From Gemmatimonadota bacterium (lineage in GTDB: Bacteria; Gemmatimonadota; Gemmatimonadetes; Longimicrobiales; Gaopeijiaceae): a stretch of DNA of 47,861 nt. Location of the stretch: NCBI GenBank assembly GCA_024638325.1, contig JAHEKM010000006.1, positions 1 through 47,861 of the forward strand, read 5' to 3'. Positions 15,046 to 41,010 of the stretch are shown piece by piece. The number at the start of each line of letters is the position of its first letter. The stretch's first letter is position 1. Made by a program: the position numbers and the translations under genes. The notes beneath the pieces were generated by a model. The model had not been told where the DNA came from and did not search any database. It saw only the letters and a program-made list of their open reading frames with translations.

Positions 15046-15494
15046 CGTCCCCCCTCGTGTTCGTTCCTGAGCTGCACTCGAGTGATGTCGCCGAGTGCGG
15101 ACATCACCGCGGCGAAGCCGTCCATGTCTCGCGTCGCCACACGATCCACGACCTGAGCTTCGAGGTCCTCCAGTCGCGCCCTCAACTCGGTCGCGACGCG
15201 GGCGCCGCGATCAGTCGATCGGATCAGGAAGGAGCGCCGGTCGTCCCGATTGGGTTCACGGAGGAGAAGCCCGCCGGTCTCGAGCCGGTCGAGCATGCCC
15301 GTCAGCGTCGACGGTTTGTAGCCGAACACACGCGTGAGCTCGGAGGGTGGGCACGGCCCGTACAGCGTTGTATACGACAGGAGATGGCCCTCGTAGGGCT
15401 CGACTCCGAGCGCCCGTGAAGCGGTCATCATGTACTCCTGGATCTGTCGTGTCCCCTTGTGGACCGGTGATACGATCCGCAGCGGTTGGGCCAT
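15042..15494 (-). CDS. MarR-family transcriptional regulator
   Basis: A 150-residue winged-helix regulator. Helices 3-4 are SELTRVFGYKPSTLTGMLDRLE and the wing reads LREPNRDDRRSFLIRSTDRG, with the conserved D-R pattern of MarR wings. The start is ATG 15494. It heads a run of DinB, SnoaL-like and VOC genes, all small ligand-binding or detoxifying folds, and probably controls them along with itself. The AT-rich divergent region just upstream holds short palindromes that may be its operator. Confidence 0.87.
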   Translation of the reverse strand: MAQPLRIVSPVHKGTRQIQEYMMTASRALGVEPYEGHLLSYTTLYGPCPPSELTRVFGYKPSTLTGMLDRLETGGLLLREPNRDDRRSFLIRSTDRGARVATELRARLEDLEAQVVDRVATRDMDGFAAVMSALGDITRVQLRNEHEGGR

Positions 15495-15603: not shown

Positions 15604-15667
15604 AGAGGCGCTCGTGCTACCTTTTCAGGCTCTGTTGGAAGGCCCCGAACTTGCGACTGACCGAGAC

Positions 15668-18157
15668 ATGAGCACGCGCACCGCAGGAGCGAACGATCAA
15701 GCCGCCGACGCCGGTTCAGCCCGGCGAGTGCTGAAGTTCGGAGGCACGTCGGTCACGGGCGCCAGTCGGCTCGACGTGATCGCCGACGTGGTCAGGGAGC
15801 GGCTACAGGAGTGTCACCCCGTGGTCGTCGTCTCGGCGCTGTCCGGGATCACGGAGCAGCTCCGGCGGGCGTCCGAGCTGGCGACCCGGGGCGAAGCGGG
15901 CGAGCTCCTGGCCGAGATCCAACAGCGACACCGTGACGCCGTAACCGAGATGACGGGCGACCACCCGGAGGCCGTCGAGAGTATCGAGCGCGTGCTCAAG
16001 GACGCGGCGAGGCTGATCCAGGGCATCGAGCTGGTGGGGGAGTGCTCGCCCCGCACGCTCGACCAGGTGCTCTCTCTCGGTGAGCGCCTGTCGGTGCAAC
16101 TCGTCTCCGCCGGCCTCTGCCAGCGCGGTATCCAGGCCCGTGCGGTCGACTCGTCCGACATCATCGTAACCGACGAGAACCACGGGGAGGCGGAAGTCGA
16201 CTTTCCCGCGACCGAAGAGCGCGCGCTCCGGGTGCTCGCGCCCGACGGCACCGTCCCGATCGTCACCGGATTCCTGGGCGCCACGCAGTCGGGGGAGCGG
16301 ACTACGCTGGGCAAGGGAGGCTCCGACTACTCGGCCGCAGTCCTCGGCTGGGCACTCAGGGCCGAAGAGGTAGAGATCTGGACGGACGTGTCGGGCGTCA
16401 TGACCGCGGACCCGCGTACGGTCCCGAGCGCGCGGCCGCTGCGGAACCTGGGCTTCAGCGAGTTGCTCGAGCTCTCCCACTGGGGCGCGCGTGTCGTGCA
16501 CCCAAAGACCGTGCGGCCCCTGCGCGACCGGGACATCCCGCTCTCGATCCGCAACACCATGGCGCCGTCGGATCCCGGAACGCTCGTGACGCCGAGAGCG
16601 CCCAAGACGAACCTGGGCCCCGTGCGAGGGATCGCGTCGATCGACCAGGTCGGGCTCCTTCAGCTCACGGGCGTGGGACACGGCAGCGAGTCGATGACGG
16701 GCCGCTTCGTGCACGCGCTCGACGAGGCCAAATGCCCGATCCTGTTGCTCAGTCAGGGCTGCAGTGAACGGTCCGTCTGCGTCGCGCTCGCGCCCCGGTC
16801 CGTTCGACCTGCGCTGCGCGCGATCGACCGGACGTTCGCGCTGGAACGGCGAGCGGGCTTGCTCGACGACCCGTCGGTCGAGGAGGACTGCTCGATCATC
16901 GCGGTCGTCGGCGAGGGCATGAAGGACATGCCCGGCATCGCGGGCAAGGTCTTCGGCGTTCTGGGCGAACACGGTATCAGCATCCGAGCCATCGCTCAGG
17001 GCTCGTCCGAGTTGAACATCTCGTTCGTCGTTCGTAGCGAGGACGTGCACGAGGGCGTGCGAGCGCTCCACGATGCCTTCTTCGGATCAGGCGTCCAGCC
17101 GGCGCCGGCCCGCGAGGAGGCGGTGCCCACGCCGACCGGGTTCGAGCCGGCGGCCCCGGGCCCGATCGACGTCGTCTCCCTGGCTACCGAGATGATCGCG
17201 ATCCCGTCGCTTTCCGGTCACGAGCACGCCGTGTGCGACTTCGTGCAGGACCTGCTCGCGGCCAAGGGATGGGAGGTCCGCACGCAGCCCGTGTCGGGTG
17301 GGCGGGTCAACATCTGGGCGACGCGCGGTGGCGGCGAGGTGACGCTCACCACCCACTTGGACACGGTACCCGGCTTCTTCCCTCCCCGAGTCGAGGACGG
17401 GAAGCTCTTCGGGCGGGGCTCGTGCGACGCCAAAGGCATCGCGGCAGCGATGATCTGCGCGGCACAGCGACTGGCCGACGCGGGTGAGGAGCGCGTGGAC
17501 CTGCTCTTCGTCGTCGGCGAGGAGGCCAGTTCCGACGGTGCGCGGGCGGCCGCGTCCCTGCCGGCGACGAGCCGATGGATGGTGAACGGCGAGCCGACCG
17601 AGAGCGGCCTGGTGAGCGCTTCCAAGGGCTCGCTACGCGTGGTCATCCGCGCTCGCGGCCAGGAGGCCCATTCGGCCTACCCGGAGCTCGGACGTTCGGC
17701 GGTGGATGGAATGGTCGCGCTGCTCAACGAGCTGCGCGAACTCGATCTTCCGAGCGACCCGGAGCTGGGCCAGACGACGGTCAACGTCGGCCTGATCCGG
17801 GGGGGCTCGGCGGCGAACGTTTTCGCTGGCGAGTGCGAGGTCGAGCTCATGATCCGACTCGTCGGCGACGCCGAACCCGTGAAGTCGGCGATCACCGAGC
17901 TGGTGGGCGGGCGCGCCGAGCTCGTGTGGGGGAGTCACATCCCTCCGCAGCGTTTTCACGTGGTCGACGGTTTCGAGACCACCACAGTGGCCTACACGAG
18001 CGACGTTCCCATCTTGGCGGCGTGGGGTACGCCACTGATGTTCGGGCCCGGATCCATACATCACGCACATACGGCGGGGGAGCACGTGTCTCTGGATGAG
18101 CTCCAAGGGGCGGTGGATGCGTACGAGGGCATCGTACGCGGGTTGGTGACGCCGTGA
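15668..18157 (+). CDS. Aspartokinase-succinyl-diaminopimelate desuccinylase fusion (LysC-DapE)
   Basis: One 829-residue frame from ATG 15668 to TGA 18157. Residues 20-300 are an aspartate kinase (VLKFGGTSVTGASRLD, TTLGKGGSDYSAA, WTDVSGVMTADPR, SHWGARVVHPKT). Tandem ACT-type regulatory domains follow to about residue 470 (MPGIAGKVFGVLGEHGISI). After a Pro/Ala-rich linker, an M20 peptidase domain runs from residue 498 to the end with a complete two-metal site: THLDTVPG (His563), GRGSCDAKG, VVGEEASSDG, NGEPTES and a C-terminal HHAHTAGEH. Linkage to dapD favours DapE over ArgE or carboxypeptidase. One protein would catalyse the committed step from aspartate and a late step to LL-DAP. It heads the asd-dapB-dapA-dapD operon and overlaps asd by 4 bases. 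LysC-LysA and AK-HSDH fusions are known; I know of no described LysC-DapE. Confidence 0.85.
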   Translation: MSTRTAGANDQAADAGSARRVLKFGGTSVTGASRLDVIADVVRERLQECHPVVVVSALSGITEQLRRASELATRGEAGELLAEIQQRHRDAVTEMTGDHPEAVESIERVLKDAARLIQGIELVGECSPRTLDQVLSLGERLSVQLVSAGLCQRGIQARAVDSSDIIVTDENHGEAEVDFPATEERALRVLAPDGTVPIVTGFLGATQSGERTTLGKGGSDYSAAVLGWALRAEEVEIWTDVSGVMTADPRTVPSARPLRNLGFSELLELSHWGARVVHPKTVRPLRDRDIPLSIRNTMAPSDPGTLVTPRAPKTNLGPVRGIASIDQVGLLQLTGVGHGSESMTGRFVHALDEAKCPILLLSQGCSERSVCVALAPRSVRPALRAIDRTFALERRAGLLDDPSVEEDCSIIAVVGEGMKDMPGIAGKVFGVLGEHGISIRAIAQGSSELNISFVVRSEDVHEGVRALHDAFFGSGVQPAPAREEAVPTPTGFEPAAPGPIDVVSLATEMIAIPSLSGHEHAVCDFVQDLLAAKGWEVRTQPVSGGRVNIWATRGGGEVTLTTHLDTVPGFFPPRVEDGKLFGRGSCDAKGIAAAMICAAQRLADAGEERVDLLFVVGEEASSDGARAAASLPATSRWMVNGEPTESGLVSASKGSLRVVIRARGQEAHSAYPELGRSAVDGMVALLNELRELDLPSDPELGQTTVNVGLIRGGSAANVFAGECEVELMIRLVGDAEPVKSAITELVGGRAELVWGSHIPPQRFHVVDGFETTTVAYTSDVPILAAWGTPLMFGPGSIHHAHTAGEHVSLDELQGAVDAYEGIVRGLVTP

Positions 18158-19260
18158 GCGGCGGAGGCTGGAGCAGCAGCCCGACCGGTAGGGACCGGAT
18201 TCCGGTCGCCGTCCTCGGCGCCACGGGTGCGGTGGGTCAGACGTTCATTCGACTTCTCGACGGGCACCCGCTCTTCAGGGTCGCCGAGGTGGCCGCCTCG
18301 GAGCGTTCCGCCGGCAAGAGCTTCCGTGAGGCGATGACCTGGCACGAAGGCGTGCTGCCAACCGAGGTCGCAGACCTGATCGTCACCACCTGCGACCCGT
18401 CCGATGTCGAGGCGAAGATCGTCTTCAGTGCGCTCGACTCATCCGTCGCGGGTGACGTGGAGAAGGCGTTCGCCAAGGCCGGGGCCATGGTGCTCAGCAA
18501 CGCCAAGAACCACCGCATGGACCCCGACGTGCCCCTGGTCATCCCCGAGGTGAACTCGGATCACTTGGCGCTCATCGACGTTCAGCGGGAAAAGCGCGGC
18601 TGGGAAGGTTCGATCGTCACCAACGCCAACTGCGCGAGCACCGTGGTCGCCGTCGCGCTGGCTCCGCTGCACGAGGCGTTCGGTTGCAGGAAGGCGATGG
18701 TCGCCACGATGCAAGCCGTCTCCGGGGCGGGCTATCCCGGCGTGCCTTCGATGGACATTCTGGGGAGCGTGATCCCCTACATCGGCGGTGAGGAAGAGAA
18801 GATCGAGAGCGAGTCGAACAAGATCCTCGGCGTGCTCGGAGACGAAGGACTGACGTTCGCCGACATCACCTTCAGCGCGCACGCCAACAGGGTGCCGGTG
18901 GAGCACGGTCACACTGCGTGTATCTCGCTGGGCTTCGACCGGGAGGTCTCGCCACAGGAGGCGATCGAGGTGCTGTCGGCATGGAAGGGCGACGAGATCA
19001 GCCACGGACTGCCGAGCTCGCCGGAGGAGGCCCTGGTCGTGTGCCCCGAGCCGGACCGGCCGCAAGCGCGGCGAGACGTATACCGCGGCCGCGGAATGAC
19101 GACACTCGTCGGCCGCGTCCGCTCGGATCCGCTCCTGCACCTGCGGCTGGTCGCTTTGTCTCACAATACGGTACGAGGCGCGGCCGGTGGGTCCGTGCTC
19201 AATGCCGAGGTGCTGGGTCGGATGGGTCGTCTGCCCGGCGTCGCGGAGGGGGCCTGGTGA
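18154..19260 (+). CDS. asd: Aspartate-semialdehyde dehydrogenase
   Basis: A 368-residue protein, GTG start at 18154 overlapping the upstream stop (GTGA). An N-terminal NADP fold (VAVLGATGAVGQTFIRLL) is followed by the catalytic Cys in TNANCASTVVAVAL, SGAGYPGVPSMDI and the His of SAHANRVPVEHGHTACI. The sequence around the Cys and the ESESNKILG region resemble the archaeal/fungal-type ASADH branch rather than the E. coli type. It reduces aspartyl phosphate, made by the kinase domain of the preceding fusion, to aspartate semialdehyde for DapA. It overlaps dapB by 4 bases. Confidence 0.92.
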   Translation: MSGGGWSSSPTGRDRIPVAVLGATGAVGQTFIRLLDGHPLFRVAEVAASERSAGKSFREAMTWHEGVLPTEVADLIVTTCDPSDVEAKIVFSALDSSVAGDVEKAFAKAGAMVLSNAKNHRMDPDVPLVIPEVNSDHLALIDVQREKRGWEGSIVTNANCASTVVAVALAPLHEAFGCRKAMVATMQAVSGAGYPGVPSMDILGSVIPYIGGEEEKIESESNKILGVLGDEGLTFADITFSAHANRVPVEHGHTACISLGFDREVSPQEAIEVLSAWKGDEISHGLPSSPEEALVVCPEPDRPQARRDVYRGRGMTTLVGRVRSDPLLHLRLVALSHNTVRGAAGGSVLNAEVLGRMGRLPGVAEGAW

Positions 19261-19973
19261 CGTCAGACTCGACGCGGGGCACCCCGCGGCTGGCGATCAT
19301 CGGCATGGGCCGCATGGGCCGCGAGGTCGAGGCCGCCGCGCAGGAGCGGGGCGTCGAGGTCGTCGCCCGGCTCGATATCGGGGACGTCGAGGACCGCGAG
19401 GCCGCTGTCGCCACCCTGGGCGAGGCCGACGTGGCGATCGCGTTCACCGTACCCGAGGCCGCCGTCGGTGACGTGGACCTCTGCCTGGAGGCCGGTGTCC
19501 CTCTGGTGCTCGGTACCACGGGCTGGTATGACCATCTTGAGGCGGTGCAGGCCAAGGTCGCGGATCGCGGCGGAACGCTGCTCTACGCACCCAACTTCTC
19601 GATGGGGGTCGCGCTCATGAAGGCGCTGCTCGAGCGGGCGGCGGAGCTCCTCCCGCAGCTCGAGGGCTTCGACGTGTCGATGTCCGAAACGCACCACGTG
19701 GCCAAGAAGGACGCCCCCTCCGGCACCGCGCTCCTGCTCAAGGACGCTCTGGCCGGGAGTGGGCGCGACGTCCCGATCACGTCCATTCGCGTGGGTCACG
19801 TTCCGGGCCGGCACGAGGTATGCATGGACGGTACATACGAGCAGGTCGTCGTGAGCCACGAGGCACGCAACCGCCGGGTCTTCGCCGACGGCGCGCTCAC
19901 GGCGGCGCTTTGGCTGCGCGGTCGATCGGGTGTGTACACGTTGGACGACGTCTTGGGTTTGGAGGGGTCATGA
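19257..19973 (+). CDS. dapB: 4-hydroxy-tetrahydrodipicolinate reductase
   Basis: A 238-residue protein; GTG 19257 overlaps the asd stop (GTGA) and begins just before the Rossmann motif LAIIGMGRMGREV, so the longer open frame upstream is not needed. The substrate-site hallmark ETHHVAKKDAPSGTA is intact and the C-terminal barrel strand pattern is normal. It is slightly short (usually 240-270). It reduces the DapA product with NAD(P)H in the cytoplasm. The stop overlaps the dapA start by 4 bases. Confidence 0.93.
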   Translation: MTSDSTRGTPRLAIIGMGRMGREVEAAAQERGVEVVARLDIGDVEDREAAVATLGEADVAIAFTVPEAAVGDVDLCLEAGVPLVLGTTGWYDHLEAVQAKVADRGGTLLYAPNFSMGVALMKALLERAAELLPQLEGFDVSMSETHHVAKKDAPSGTALLLKDALAGSGRDVPITSIRVGHVPGRHEVCMDGTYEQVVVSHEARNRRVFADGALTAALWLRGRSGVYTLDDVLGLEGS

Positions 19974-20857
19974 GCGAGGTGGTGGTGAGGGGATGTGGGA
20001 CGGCGCTCGTGACCCCTTTCACGGTGAACGGAGCCGTGGACGAGGACGCGTACCGCGCGCTCGTGGACTGGCAGATCGAGGAGGGCATCCACTTCCTCGT
20101 GCCCTGTGGCTCGACCGGAGAAGCCGCCACGCTGACCCCGGAGGAGCACCTCAGGGTCGTGCGACTGGCCGCTGAGCAGGCCGCCGGACGCGTGCCGACG
20201 CTCGGCGGTGTCAGCGGGAACGACACACGCGCGACCATCGAGCAGGCCAAGGCAGTCGCAGACCAGGGCGTCTCGCACCTCATGGTCGTGGGTCCCCCGT
20301 ACAATCGGCCACCTCAGCGCGGCTTCATCGCCCACTTCGAGGCCGTCGCGGACGCCGTCGATGTCCCCATCGTCCTGTACAACGTGCCCGGTCGCACGGG
20401 CTCCAATATCGTGTCCAAGACGACGCTCACGCTGGCCGAGCACCCCAACATCTGTGGGGTGAAGGAGGCGTCGGGGAACATGGACCAGATCCTCGACGTC
20501 ATCCTCCATCGACCGACGGGCTTCGTGGTGCTCTCGGGCGACGACCCGCTCACCGTGCCCATCATGGCGCTCGGGGGGGACGGAGTCGTGTCGGTCGTCA
20601 GCAATGCGGTACCCGGCCCGATGGCCAAACTGACCGAGGCGATGGACCGGGGCGACCTCGCAGAGGCACGTCGCCTCATGGGTACGCTCCAGCCGATCAT
20701 GATCGCAGGATTCGTGGAGAGCAATCCGATGCCAATGAAGGCCGCCATGGCCGAGCTCGGCCGCATGGAGGACATCGTTCGCCTGCCCCTCGTTCGGCTC
20801 GCGGACGAGCATCGCGGGAAGATCAGGGACGCCCTGTCCGCGGCGGGTGCGCTATGA
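19970..20857 (+). CDS. dapA: 4-hydroxy-tetrahydrodipicolinate synthase
   Basis: A 295-residue TIM barrel; ATG 19970 overlaps the dapB stop (ATGA) behind GGAGGGG. Key motifs are GTALVTPF, the GSTGEAATL loop, YNVPGRTG and the Schiff-base lysine in GVKEASGNM. It condenses pyruvate with aspartate semialdehyde. Length and motifs are typical, and nothing is missing. Its stop overlaps dapD by 4 bases. Confidence 0.95.
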   Translation: MSEVVVRGCGTALVTPFTVNGAVDEDAYRALVDWQIEEGIHFLVPCGSTGEAATLTPEEHLRVVRLAAEQAAGRVPTLGGVSGNDTRATIEQAKAVADQGVSHLMVVGPPYNRPPQRGFIAHFEAVADAVDVPIVLYNVPGRTGSNIVSKTTLTLAEHPNICGVKEASGNMDQILDVILHRPTGFVVLSGDDPLTVPIMALGGDGVVSVVSNAVPGPMAKLTEAMDRGDLAEARRLMGTLQPIMIAGFVESNPMPMKAAMAELGRMEDIVRLPLVRLADEHRGKIRDALSAAGAL

Positions 20858-21729
20858 GCCTGGTCGATTACGAGGACTTGCAGGGGAAGGTCGAGTGGCT
20901 CTCAGAGCGGCCGGCGGGCGAGGATCTGCCAGAGGCCGCGGCCGAGGTGGTGGAGGACCTGCTCGACGGACTCGAGACCGGCGAGCTGCGGGCTGCGCGC
21001 AGGACGGCCGACGGAGCGTGGGAGGCCGTGCCGTGGGTGAAGCGCGGCATCCTGCTCGCGTTTCGACTCGGGGTGATCGCGCCCACAGCCGGCACCGAAG
21101 GCGGCGTGCCCGAGGGCGAGAGGGCGGCCTTCTTCGACAAGCACACGCTTCCACTCCGGCGCTTCGCGCTGAGCGACGGCGTGCGCCTCGTGCCGGGCGG
21201 CTCAGCCGTACGGCGCGGTGCGCATGTGGCACGGGGCGTCGTGTGCATGCCTCCCATGTACGTCAACGTCGGGGCCTTTGTCGGCACCGGCACCATGATC
21301 GACTCGCACGCCCTCGTGGGTTCGTGCGCACAAGTCGGTGAGCGGGTGCATGTGAGCGCGGCCGCCCAGCTCGGCGGCGTGCTGGAGCCGATCAACGCTT
21401 CGCCCGTCGTGATCGAGGACGAGGCCGTAATCGGCGGCAACGTGGGCGTGTACGAGGGCACCATCGTGCGCCGCCGCGCCGTCCTGGGCGCCGGGGTGGT
21501 GCTCACTCGCGGCACTCCCGTCTTCGACCTGGTGAACGAGACGGTGCATCGGGCGACCGACGGGCGGCCGTTGGAGATCCCGGAAGACGCCGTGGTGGTG
21601 GGCGGCTCGCGCGCGGTGAGCTCCGATTGGGGCACCATGCAGGGCATCGCGCTCTACACGCCGGTCATCGTGAAATACCGCGACGAGAAGACGGACCTGG
21701 CGACTGCCCTGGAGGGGTGGTTGCGGTAA
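20854..21729 (+). CDS. dapD: Tetrahydrodipicolinate N-succinyltransferase
   Basis: A 291-residue left-handed beta-helix acyltransferase. N-terminal helices lead into AFFDKHTLPLRRF, then the hexapeptide coils VVCMPPMYVNVGAFVGTGTM and SAAAQLGGVLEPINASPVVI. The MPPMYVNVGA signature is diagnostic of DapD. It transfers succinyl from succinyl-CoA, committing the cell to the succinylase branch whose deacylation step is supplied by the DapE half of the first gene. Last gene of the overlapping operon; a weak hairpin region follows. Confidence 0.92.
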   Translation: MSLVDYEDLQGKVEWLSERPAGEDLPEAAAEVVEDLLDGLETGELRAARRTADGAWEAVPWVKRGILLAFRLGVIAPTAGTEGGVPEGERAAFFDKHTLPLRRFALSDGVRLVPGGSAVRRGAHVARGVVCMPPMYVNVGAFVGTGTMIDSHALVGSCAQVGERVHVSAAAQLGGVLEPINASPVVIEDEAVIGGNVGVYEGTIVRRRAVLGAGVVLTRGTPVFDLVNETVHRATDGRPLEIPEDAVVVGGSRAVSSDWGTMQGIALYTPVIVKYRDEKTDLATALEGWLR

Positions 21730-38861: not shown

Positions 38862-39092
38862 GTGCACGCACCTCTCTCCACCGGCGGGGGCCTACTGCCG
38901 CTCGTTGTGCTCGGCGCGGCCTGCACCGGTGGGGACGGCGCGCCACCGGCCGGCACCGTGGAGGGGCACGTCGCAGCGGCGGTCCGCGGCCCTGGCGATC
39001 CACACCCCTACGTGGTGGGCCAGGAGAGCGTAGGGCGGTACCTCACGGTTGCCGCAGAATGCGGCAGGGCGGGCCTCGTTGGCCTCGACTGA
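38862..39092 (+). CDS. Possible small lipoprotein
   Basis: A frame from GTG 38862 gives 76 residues with LVVLGAAC, a lipobox-like sequence, followed by a Gly/Ala/Pro-rich polar stretch. It has no charged N terminus and overlaps the speA start by 44 or 14 bases, depending on which TTG speA uses, so it may be spurious. Nothing in it identifies a family. Confidence 0.25.
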   Translation: MHAPLSTGGGLLPLVVLGAACTGGDGAPPAGTVEGHVAAAVRGPGDPHPYVVGQESVGRYLTVAAECGRAGLVGLD

Positions 39093-41010
39093 TACGTGGA
39101 CGCCGGCGGATGCCGCGCGGCTCTATCGCGTCGCCGAGTGGGGGAACGGGTATTTCGGCGTGACCGAGAAGGGGACGGTTGCGGTGTACCCCTCGGCCGA
39201 CCCTGCTCACCGGATCGACCTACACACGGTCGCGGAGGGGCTCGCGGCTCGCGAGCTGACACCACCGGTCATCGTTCGCTTTCCGGGCGTGCTGAAGCAC
39301 CGGATGGGCTCCATCCGTAGGGCGTTCGACACGGCGATCGAAGAGCACGGGTACGACGGGCGGTATCAGTGCCTCTACCCGATCAAGGTGAATCAGGAAC
39401 GGCATGTCTGTGAGGCCATCGCCGAGTACGGCGACGAGCTGGGCTTCGGCATCGAGGTGGGCTCCAAGCCGGAGCTCCTGGCCGGCCTGTCGCTCACACG
39501 TGGCAGAAACGGCATGCCGCTCGTCTGCAACGGCTTCAAGGACGCGGAGTACGTCAAGATCGCCACGCTCGCGGCGAAGATGGGACGCAACGTCCTGCCG
39601 GTCGTCGAGCAGGCGCACGAGCTGCGGCTCATTCACGCCTCGGCCAAGGCGCATCAGATCGTGCCTCAGTTCGGCATCCGAGCGAAGCTCGCGGCGAGCG
39701 GGGTCGGGCGGTGGGCCGGCTCGTCCGGGTACCGCGGCAAGTTCGGGCTGACCGTCGGTGAGATCTTGCACGCCGTGAAGTATCTCGAGGACGTGGATAT
39801 GCTCTCGGGCCTTCGCATGCTGCACTGCCACATGGGCTCGCAGATCTACGACATCCGCGCGGTGAAGACGATGGTCAGCGAGCTCGCGCACCTGTACGTG
39901 GAGCTGGTGAGAATCGGTGCCCCCGTCACCGTGCTCGACATCGGAGGTGGGCTCGGGGTCGACTACGACGGCACGCAGTCCGCGTCCGGCTCCTCGGTCA
40001 ACTACACACTCGAGCAGTACGCGAGCGACGTGGTCCACCGGGTGAAGGCGATCTGCGACGAGGCGGGCGTGCGGCATCCGGAGTTGATGACGGAGTCGGG
40101 GCGCGCCCTGGTCGCCCACTCGAGCGTACTGGTCTGCGAGGTGATCGGTAGCCGCGCCTTTCCGAGCAGCCCCGACGCTCGCTTGCTGGAGGCCGCGCTC
40201 TCCAAGCCCGAGCCGCCCCAGCCGCTGCTGGATGCCCACGACGCGTACCAGCGCCGCGGCGAAGGAGACCTGCTCGAGGCGTACGCCGACGTCGAGCATG
40301 CGCTGGCCGAGGCTACGGCGCTCTTCAGCTTGGGATACATCGACCTGCAGGCCCGGGCCGCGTGCGAGGAGATCTTCTGGGCGATGGGCTGGGACGTGCT
40401 GCAGGCGTACAAGGACGAGCTGCCCGAGGGGCTAGACGGCCTGCCCGATCAGCTCGCTGATCTCTACTTCTTGAACCTGAGCATCTTCCAGTCCCTGTTG
40501 GACTCCTGGGGCATCGAGCAGCTCTTCCCGGTCATGCCGATCCACCGGCTCACCGAGGAGCCGACGCGCCAAGGCGTCCTGGCCGATATCACCTGCGACT
40601 CGGACGGCCGGGTGGACCGGTTCCCCGGCGAGTGGGCGCCGAAGACTACGCTCGAGCTACACGAGCCCGAGCAGGGTCCGGACGGTGCGCAGCTGCCGTA
40701 CTACCTCGCGTTCTTCCTCACCGGTGCGTACCAGGAGACGCTGGGCGACCTCCACAACCTCCTGGGTGACACGCACGCCGTGCACGTCACGCTCGGCGCC
40801 GACGGCAAGTGGCGCATCGACACTGTGATCGAAGGGGATACCGTGAGCGAGGTGCTGTCGTTCGTGCAGTTCGATCCGGAGGCGATGCGGGCGGCGCTCC
40901 GGCAGGACATCGAGGTCGCCCTCGAGGAGGAGCGCCTCACGCTCCAAGAGGGTGCCAGCCTGAGGCGTTTCCTCGACGAGAGCCTCCAGGGCTACACCTA
41001 CCTGGAGTAG
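39049..41010 (+). CDS. speA: Biosynthetic arginine decarboxylase
   Basis: A 653-residue PLP enzyme of the SpeA (fold III) family. The PLP lysine lies in CLYPIKVNQERHVCEAI near residue 112, and the family's active-site C-terminal motif is MPIHRLTEEPTRQGVLADIT followed by CDSDG. The frame has only TTG start codons near its beginning (39049 and 39079); an in-frame TAG at 39031 limits the start. It converts arginine to agmatine for polyamine synthesis; no agmatinase gene is present in the window. The fused spermidine-synthase-like gene at 25650 could share the pathway, but this is not shown. Confidence 0.92.
   Translation: MPQNAAGRASLASTDTWTPADAARLYRVAEWGNGYFGVTEKGTVAVYPSADPAHRIDLHTVAEGLAARELTPPVIVRFPGVLKHRMGSIRRAFDTAIEEHGYDGRYQCLYPIKVNQERHVCEAIAEYGDELGFGIEVGSKPELLAGLSLTRGRNGMPLVCNGFKDAEYVKIATLAAKMGRNVLPVVEQAHELRLIHASAKAHQIVPQFGIRAKLAASGVGRWAGSSGYRGKFGLTVGEILHAVKYLEDVDMLSGLRMLHCHMGSQIYDIRAVKTMVSELAHLYVELVRIGAPVTVLDIGGGLGVDYDGTQSASGSSVNYTLEQYASDVVHRVKAICDEAGVRHPELMTESGRALVAHSSVLVCEVIGSRAFPSSPDARLLEAALSKPEPPQPLLDAHDAYQRRGEGDLLEAYADVEHALAEATALFSLGYIDLQARAACEEIFWAMGWDVLQAYKDELPEGLDGLPDQLADLYFLNLSIFQSLLDSWGIEQLFPVMPIHRLTEEPTRQGVLADITCDSDGRVDRFPGEWAPKTTLELHEPEQGPDGAQLPYYLAFFLTGAYQETLGDLHNLLGDTHAVHVTLGADGKWRIDTVIEGDTVSEVLSFVQFDPEAMRAALRQDIEVALEEERLTLQEGASLRRFLDESLQGYTYLE

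Follow-up and report, generated by a model that had tools for sequence, protein, structure and literature searches.

What kind of enzyme is encoded by a reading frame that begins as an aspartokinase (AK) and ends as an M20 amidohydrolase, and why should the two be joined at the head of a lysine operon? Fusions of aspartokinase are textbook cases of control at the entry to a pathway. Two such fusions are already known, with homoserine dehydrogenase (AK-HSDH) and with diaminopimelate decarboxylase (AK-LysA) (PMC1885841; PMC2705460), the AK-LysA fusion being known from Xanthomonadaceae (PMC1885841). The present frame lies in a stretch of 47,861 nucleotides, referred to here as the window. Our preferred reading, to which we assign a probability of about 0.78, is that of a gene for a bifunctional lysine-pathway enzyme with a DapE-type M20 half, both activities being assigned from sequence and gene context.

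The gene, which like the genes that follow it in the operon and the element upstream is on the forward strand, is a single open frame from an ATG at 15668 to a stop at 18155–18157 and specifies 829 residues in the order AK-ACT-ACT-linker-M20 (15668–18157), an arrangement backed by Pfam and by full-length orthologues. A GTG at 15347 could in principle act as an upstream start; the ATG at 15668 is the one common to the genus. The AK catalytic domain, of the ThrA type, covers residues 20–296 (15725–16555) on the strength of Pfam AA_kinase (residues 19–296, 163 bits), the tree and a structure match. Alignment to 3c1m reveals its KFGGTS, GER and GGSD motifs, which are invariant among the aligned fusions of the window's own family. 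Two ACT domains follow at residues 318–472 (16619–17083), recognised by ACT_9 in two stretches (114 bits), the tandem arrangement of an aspartokinase, and by alignment of the motifs LLSQGCSE and IAQGSSELNIS to 6mx1 and 3c1m. A hypervariable linker rich in Ala, Pro and Glu (residues 473–499; 17084–17164) leads into the M20 metallo-amidohydrolase domain at residues 500–827 (17165–18148), the putative DapE, which contains a Peptidase_M20 match (residues 560–823, 74 bits) and an M20_dimer match (63 bits) that defines the dimerisation insert with its invariant H668 (residues 651–739; 17618–17884). All four Pfam families score above their gathering cut-offs. The two-metal site is complete, with H563, D587, E619, E642 and H801 providing the H, D, E, E/D, H ligand set found on the M20 fold of DapE and with D565 and E618 as catalytic acids, and these seven residues are invariant both in the aligned fusions and in 43 relatives.

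AlphaFold2 predicts two confident domains (mean pLDDT 92) separated by a disordered segment, residues 477–490, where pLDDT falls below 50; with a pTM of 0.62 the relative placement of the domains is unsure. The dN/dS values of the AK and M20 domains are mostly 0.01–0.18, the mark of purifying selection, whereas the 27 residues of the linker, the sequence of which is not conserved in the alignment of these fusions, evolve fast and give 0.5–0.8 where measurable. Such a contrast between linker and domains is expected if the linker is real.

The fusion heads asd-dapB-dapA-dapD, and successive genes overlap by 4 nucleotides. The asd gene (18154–19260), which overlaps the stop of the fusion by the same margin, encodes an aspartate-semialdehyde dehydrogenase of the asd_EA type and is followed by dapB (19257–19973; the reading frame suggests the GTG at 19257 as its start), dapA (19970–20857) and dapD (20854–21729). 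DapD is a tetrahydrodipicolinate N-succinyltransferase (280 bits against a cut-off of 204), of the succinyl rather than the acetyl type (280 versus 80 bits), and this implies N-succinyl-diaminopimelate as the downstream amide. The synteny of the fusion with asd-dapB-dapA-dapD is kept within the genus. Upstream of the fusion, the element TGCTACCTTTTC (15615–15626) is identical in all five genus genomes and absent from every other locus examined, with 0.02 chance matches expected in the window at no more than one mismatch; it is possibly an extended -10 promoter element or some other regulatory element. No riboswitch or other Rfam element reaches the gathering thresholds in the window. Further downstream, at 39049–41010, lies an arginine decarboxylase-like gene with Orn_Arg_deC_N and SpeA-type C-terminal domains.

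The preliminary description had taken the kinase for a LysC, an identity that is rejected by both the tree and the family score. The fused AK groups within the ThrA clade, alongside the AK-HSDHs of genus g29 with support of 100/99, and its best NCBIfam model is the AK-HSDH PRK09436 (435.8 bits over the AK part, below the cut-off of 726). The C-terminal homoserine dehydrogenase domain of ThrA is lacking, since the C-terminus is M20, and so is the C-terminal diaminopimelate decarboxylase of AK-LysA, with PRK08961 at 249.7 bits falling below its cut-off of 802. The closest solved structure is the threonine-sensitive AK of M. jannaschii, and the two ACT motifs align with those of this enzyme and of E. 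coli AK I. In plant AK-HSDH such glutamines bind threonine, and those of the present motifs may do the same. As the kinase is of the ThrA type and its ACT motifs are of the threonine-sensitive kind, lysine feedback is not the default expectation, and the motifs point to threonine as the first candidate ligand. The ACT domains probably regulate the kinase only, and lysine sensing more likely resides in the genome's second aspartokinase, the LysA fusion. This other AK is a single-chain AK-LysA (L039 42–2684, in G000:C194), and the same is seen in G002 and G003 (L233, L234); both aspartokinases found in G000, G002 and G003 are fused to lysine-pathway enzymes. Four of the five genus genomes (G000–G003) encode homoserine dehydrogenase as a gene of its own; none was found in G004, which is 89% complete.

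The fusion is full-length and without stops in all five genomes of the genus (G000, that of the window, and G001–G004, at 75–86% identity), and the same family has it full-length in three further genera, represented by G119 (64% identity), G011 (57%) and G136 (54%). A missed stop or frameshift at the linker was looked for and none was found, the five independent genus assemblies staying in frame across the junction. Taken with the single frame, the Pfam domains and the orthologues across genera, this bears out the proposal of a single-chain AK/M20 fusion at the head of asd-dapB-dapA-dapD. Two variants were observed besides. The second ACT motif in the fused AK of G136 (L158 6799–9246) is degenerate, reading GMARGSEAPSLS where AIAQGSSELNIS is usual, and feedback has possibly been lost in this protein. 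In its congener G133 an AK remnant and an M20 lie in different frames at a contig end (L164 3–1780), which may be read as a broken or mis-assembled fusion.

A clue to the origin of the fusion comes from the Gemmatimonadaceae, where the M20 is the separate first gene of M20-asd-AK-dapB-dapA-dapD in dozens of loci. These M20 proteins are about 60–64% identical to that of the window, and the operon AK is mostly 33–37% identical to the fused AK. The genus of the window lacks this operon AK, and its M20 is fused instead to an AK of the ThrA type. A separate M20 within the lysine operon, as these relatives have it, accounts for the fusion and points to DapE as the likely role of the M20. A second family, f4, also has AK and M20 in one frame, but rarely, in 5 of 101 genomes (G298, G249, G203, G255 and G289), four of which have the order [AK-M20]-dapB-dapA-dapD. 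In several f4 relatives the AK and M20 genes are adjacent and overlap in another frame, plausibly the precursor state of the f4 fusion. Here the fused AK is of the operon, or lysine, type, being 45–49% identical to operon AK versus 37–40% to the window AK, and its ACT motif MLGAYGFL...VDVVATSEVSVSL aligns with the lysine-binding AKs 2cdq and 2j0w. With a lysine-type ACT motif in f4 and a threonine-type one in the window, the ligand sensed is expected to differ between the two fusions. The AU test rejects one common origin for every AK-M20 fusion (p 5e-5, delta lnL 226), whilst a single origin is compatible with the tree within the first family (83/70) and is not rejected within the second (p 0.24). 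AK and M20 have thus been joined on at least two separate occasions, starting from different types of kinase.

The assignment of the M20 half as DapE stands in part. Operon context and pathway logic favour it, and on these grounds the M20 very likely performs the DapE step, yet the domain stays below the cut-off of every curated equivalog model for DapE or ArgE. Against models for DapE or ArgE/DapE it scores 82–141 bits where the cut-offs are 217–362, including dapE_proteo (82 against 362), dapE-gram_pos (122 against 304) and PRK13009 (96 against 284). The top NCBIfam model is the acetylornithine deacetylase TIGR01892, at 154 bits also well short of its cut-off of 298. The closest match to the predicted model of the domain is E. 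faecium DapE (E 4.7e-32), followed by E. coli ArgE, and whilst the YTSD of the domain lines up with the DapE and LysK motif TSD, the C-terminal GPGSIHHAHT is ArgE-like (GPGSI..AH). The pathway nonetheless calls for a DapE, given a succinyl-type DapD, a DapF in all genomes tested and no other obvious conserved candidate, the scan being a partial one for the other M20 proteins of two genus members. Some members have further ArgE/DapE-family M20s (PRK13013 in G004, L254 in G003), one of which might conceivably be the DapE instead.

In the mechanism that we propose, the N-terminal ThrA-type AK would make aspartyl phosphate in step 1 and the C-terminal M20 would very likely hydrolyse N-succinyl-LL-diaminopimelate. 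The gene would have arisen when an AK domain related to that of AK-HSDH was joined ahead of the operon's first gene, the M20, the operon's own AK being lost. The most likely benefit would be co-expression of the first and a late step at fixed stoichiometry, with independent active sites. Direct channelling is unlikely because the steps are not consecutive and several enzymes lie between them. A shared dimerisation may be a further benefit. The families of both halves oligomerise, and in M20 enzymes like DapE the dimer is required for a conserved His of the dimerisation domain, which we take to be H668, invariant among the 43 relatives. Given this need for a dimer, dimerisation of the AK could help the M20 to assemble.

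That the fusion is an artefact of assembly or frameshift joining neighbouring genes is rejected as exceedingly improbable: although the source is a metagenome-assembled Gemmatimonadota genome, 80% complete, and many second-family genomes have the two genes separate, adjacent and overlapping, the same fusion is conserved in the independent genus assemblies and in three more genera, where the linkers have diverged yet contain no stop, and those relatives with a separate M20 gene have no ThrA-type AK directly upstream. A real fusion could still carry an M20 that acts on some other N-acyl amino acid, such as N-acetyl-diaminopimelate, N-acetylornithine or acetylcitrulline, alone or besides succinyl-diaminopimelate, as might be suggested by the acetylornithine deacetylase model, by the C-terminal motif and by the arginine genes of the genus, where ArgG and ArgH occur and ArgJ is absent, so that some deacylase could serve arginine synthesis. 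ArgH is indeed present in G000–G004, with ArgG in G000, despite the absence of ArgC and ArgJ. We consider this unlikely. No ArgC above cut-off and no ArgJ was found in the five genus genomes, which are 80–97% complete, and this leaves the N-acetylornithine route incomplete and a role in it unlikely; the M20 as the ArgE of the genus is disfavoured on the same ground. Moreover, the M20 travels with lysine genes throughout the phylum, even in genomes that have ArgJ, and DapD prefers the succinyl over the acetyl model.

If the preferred reading of a bifunctional lysine-pathway enzyme is followed, it may be asked whether the halves stay together and whether they communicate. Translation might start anew within the linker, or the chain might be cleaved by a protease, and two enzymes would result, with the fusion serving only as a translational arrangement. 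An AGGAGG at 17115–17120 precedes an in-frame GTG (codon 486) by 2 nucleotides in the window, a GTG shortly before the M20 domain of G298 and G249 has a GGAGG 5 nucleotides upstream, and the linker is predicted to be disordered. The spacing in the window is, however, too short for a good initiation site, and no conserved internal start is found in the linker among the first-family fusions compared (G001–G004, G119, G011 and G136), which makes separation quite improbable. It has also been proposed that the ACT signal might reach the M20 domain, and the recurrence of the fusion in the same domain order, with the ACT domains adjoining the M20 and with two halves of dimerising kinds that might pack closely, would suit an allosteric device in which ACT ligand binding alters M20 activity. 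The disordered, unconserved linker and the unsure domain placement lend this proposal no support. Moreover, the ACT types of the two families differ in their expected ligand, and G136 keeps the fusion though its usual second ACT motif is lost; we regard such allostery as very doubtful. A broader form, in which the late deacylation is controlled by the state of the AK, be it ligand binding to ACT or assembly, such that entry to and exit from the diaminopimelate branch are throttled together, and in which this evolved twice, is also rather improbable; were it true, the ACT domains of the two fusions would be tuned to different end products.

Within the known bifunctional aspartokinases, M20 appears to be a new third fusion partner. 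As the preliminary description held, the partner, M20 by Pfam, lies outside the known AK fusions with HSDH and LysA, and full-text literature searches of partial coverage returned no report of an AK-M20 or AK-DapE fusion. AK-HSDH and AK-LysA have family models, whereas none for AK-M20 is among the best 25 NCBIfam matches. Like AK-HSDH (ThrA/MetL, PRK09436), the protein has an N-terminal ThrA-type AK with two ACT domains, to which another aspartate-family enzyme is joined C-terminally, and its AK domain is sister to those of the AK-HSDHs of the same bacterial family, but the C-terminal partner is a lysine-branch M20 amidohydrolase. As in AK-LysA (PRK08961), an AK is joined to a late lysine-pathway enzyme, although here this is an M20 and the AK comes from another clade with threonine-type ACT motifs. 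The M20 half shares with DapE (7uoi, 8f8o, 5vo3) the fold, the two-metal site, the dimerisation insert with its conserved His and the TSD motif, together with a lysine operon containing a succinyl-type dapD; it differs in being shorter (about 330 residues), below the DapE cut-offs, ArgE-like at GPGSI..AH and fused to an AK. ArgE and LysK (acetylornithine deacetylase and [LysW]-lysine hydrolase) are closest in sequence-model scores and C-terminal motif, but their cut-offs too are missed, the context is that of diaminopimelate rather than arginine or LysW, and no ArgC was found in the genus. The wider M20 group points to a phylum-wide candidate DapE subfamily in Gemmatimonadota that falls outside every curated DapE model.

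The two fusions from different AK classes offer a natural replicate on the joining of AK to non-consecutive enzymes, in which shared expression and stoichiometry can be separated from ligand-specific feedback. Two of the f4 members are unusual. In the fused AK of G203 (L161 7051–9441) some 45 residues that should follow KFGGTS, the VVVVSA strand among them, are missing, which may mean a dead kinase or a deletion in the sequence. G255, in which no further dap gene accompanies the fused copy in the stretch examined, combines this copy with a separate adjacent pair of AK and M20 genes in one genome (G255:C67 and G255:C8), possibly as paralogous lysine loci.
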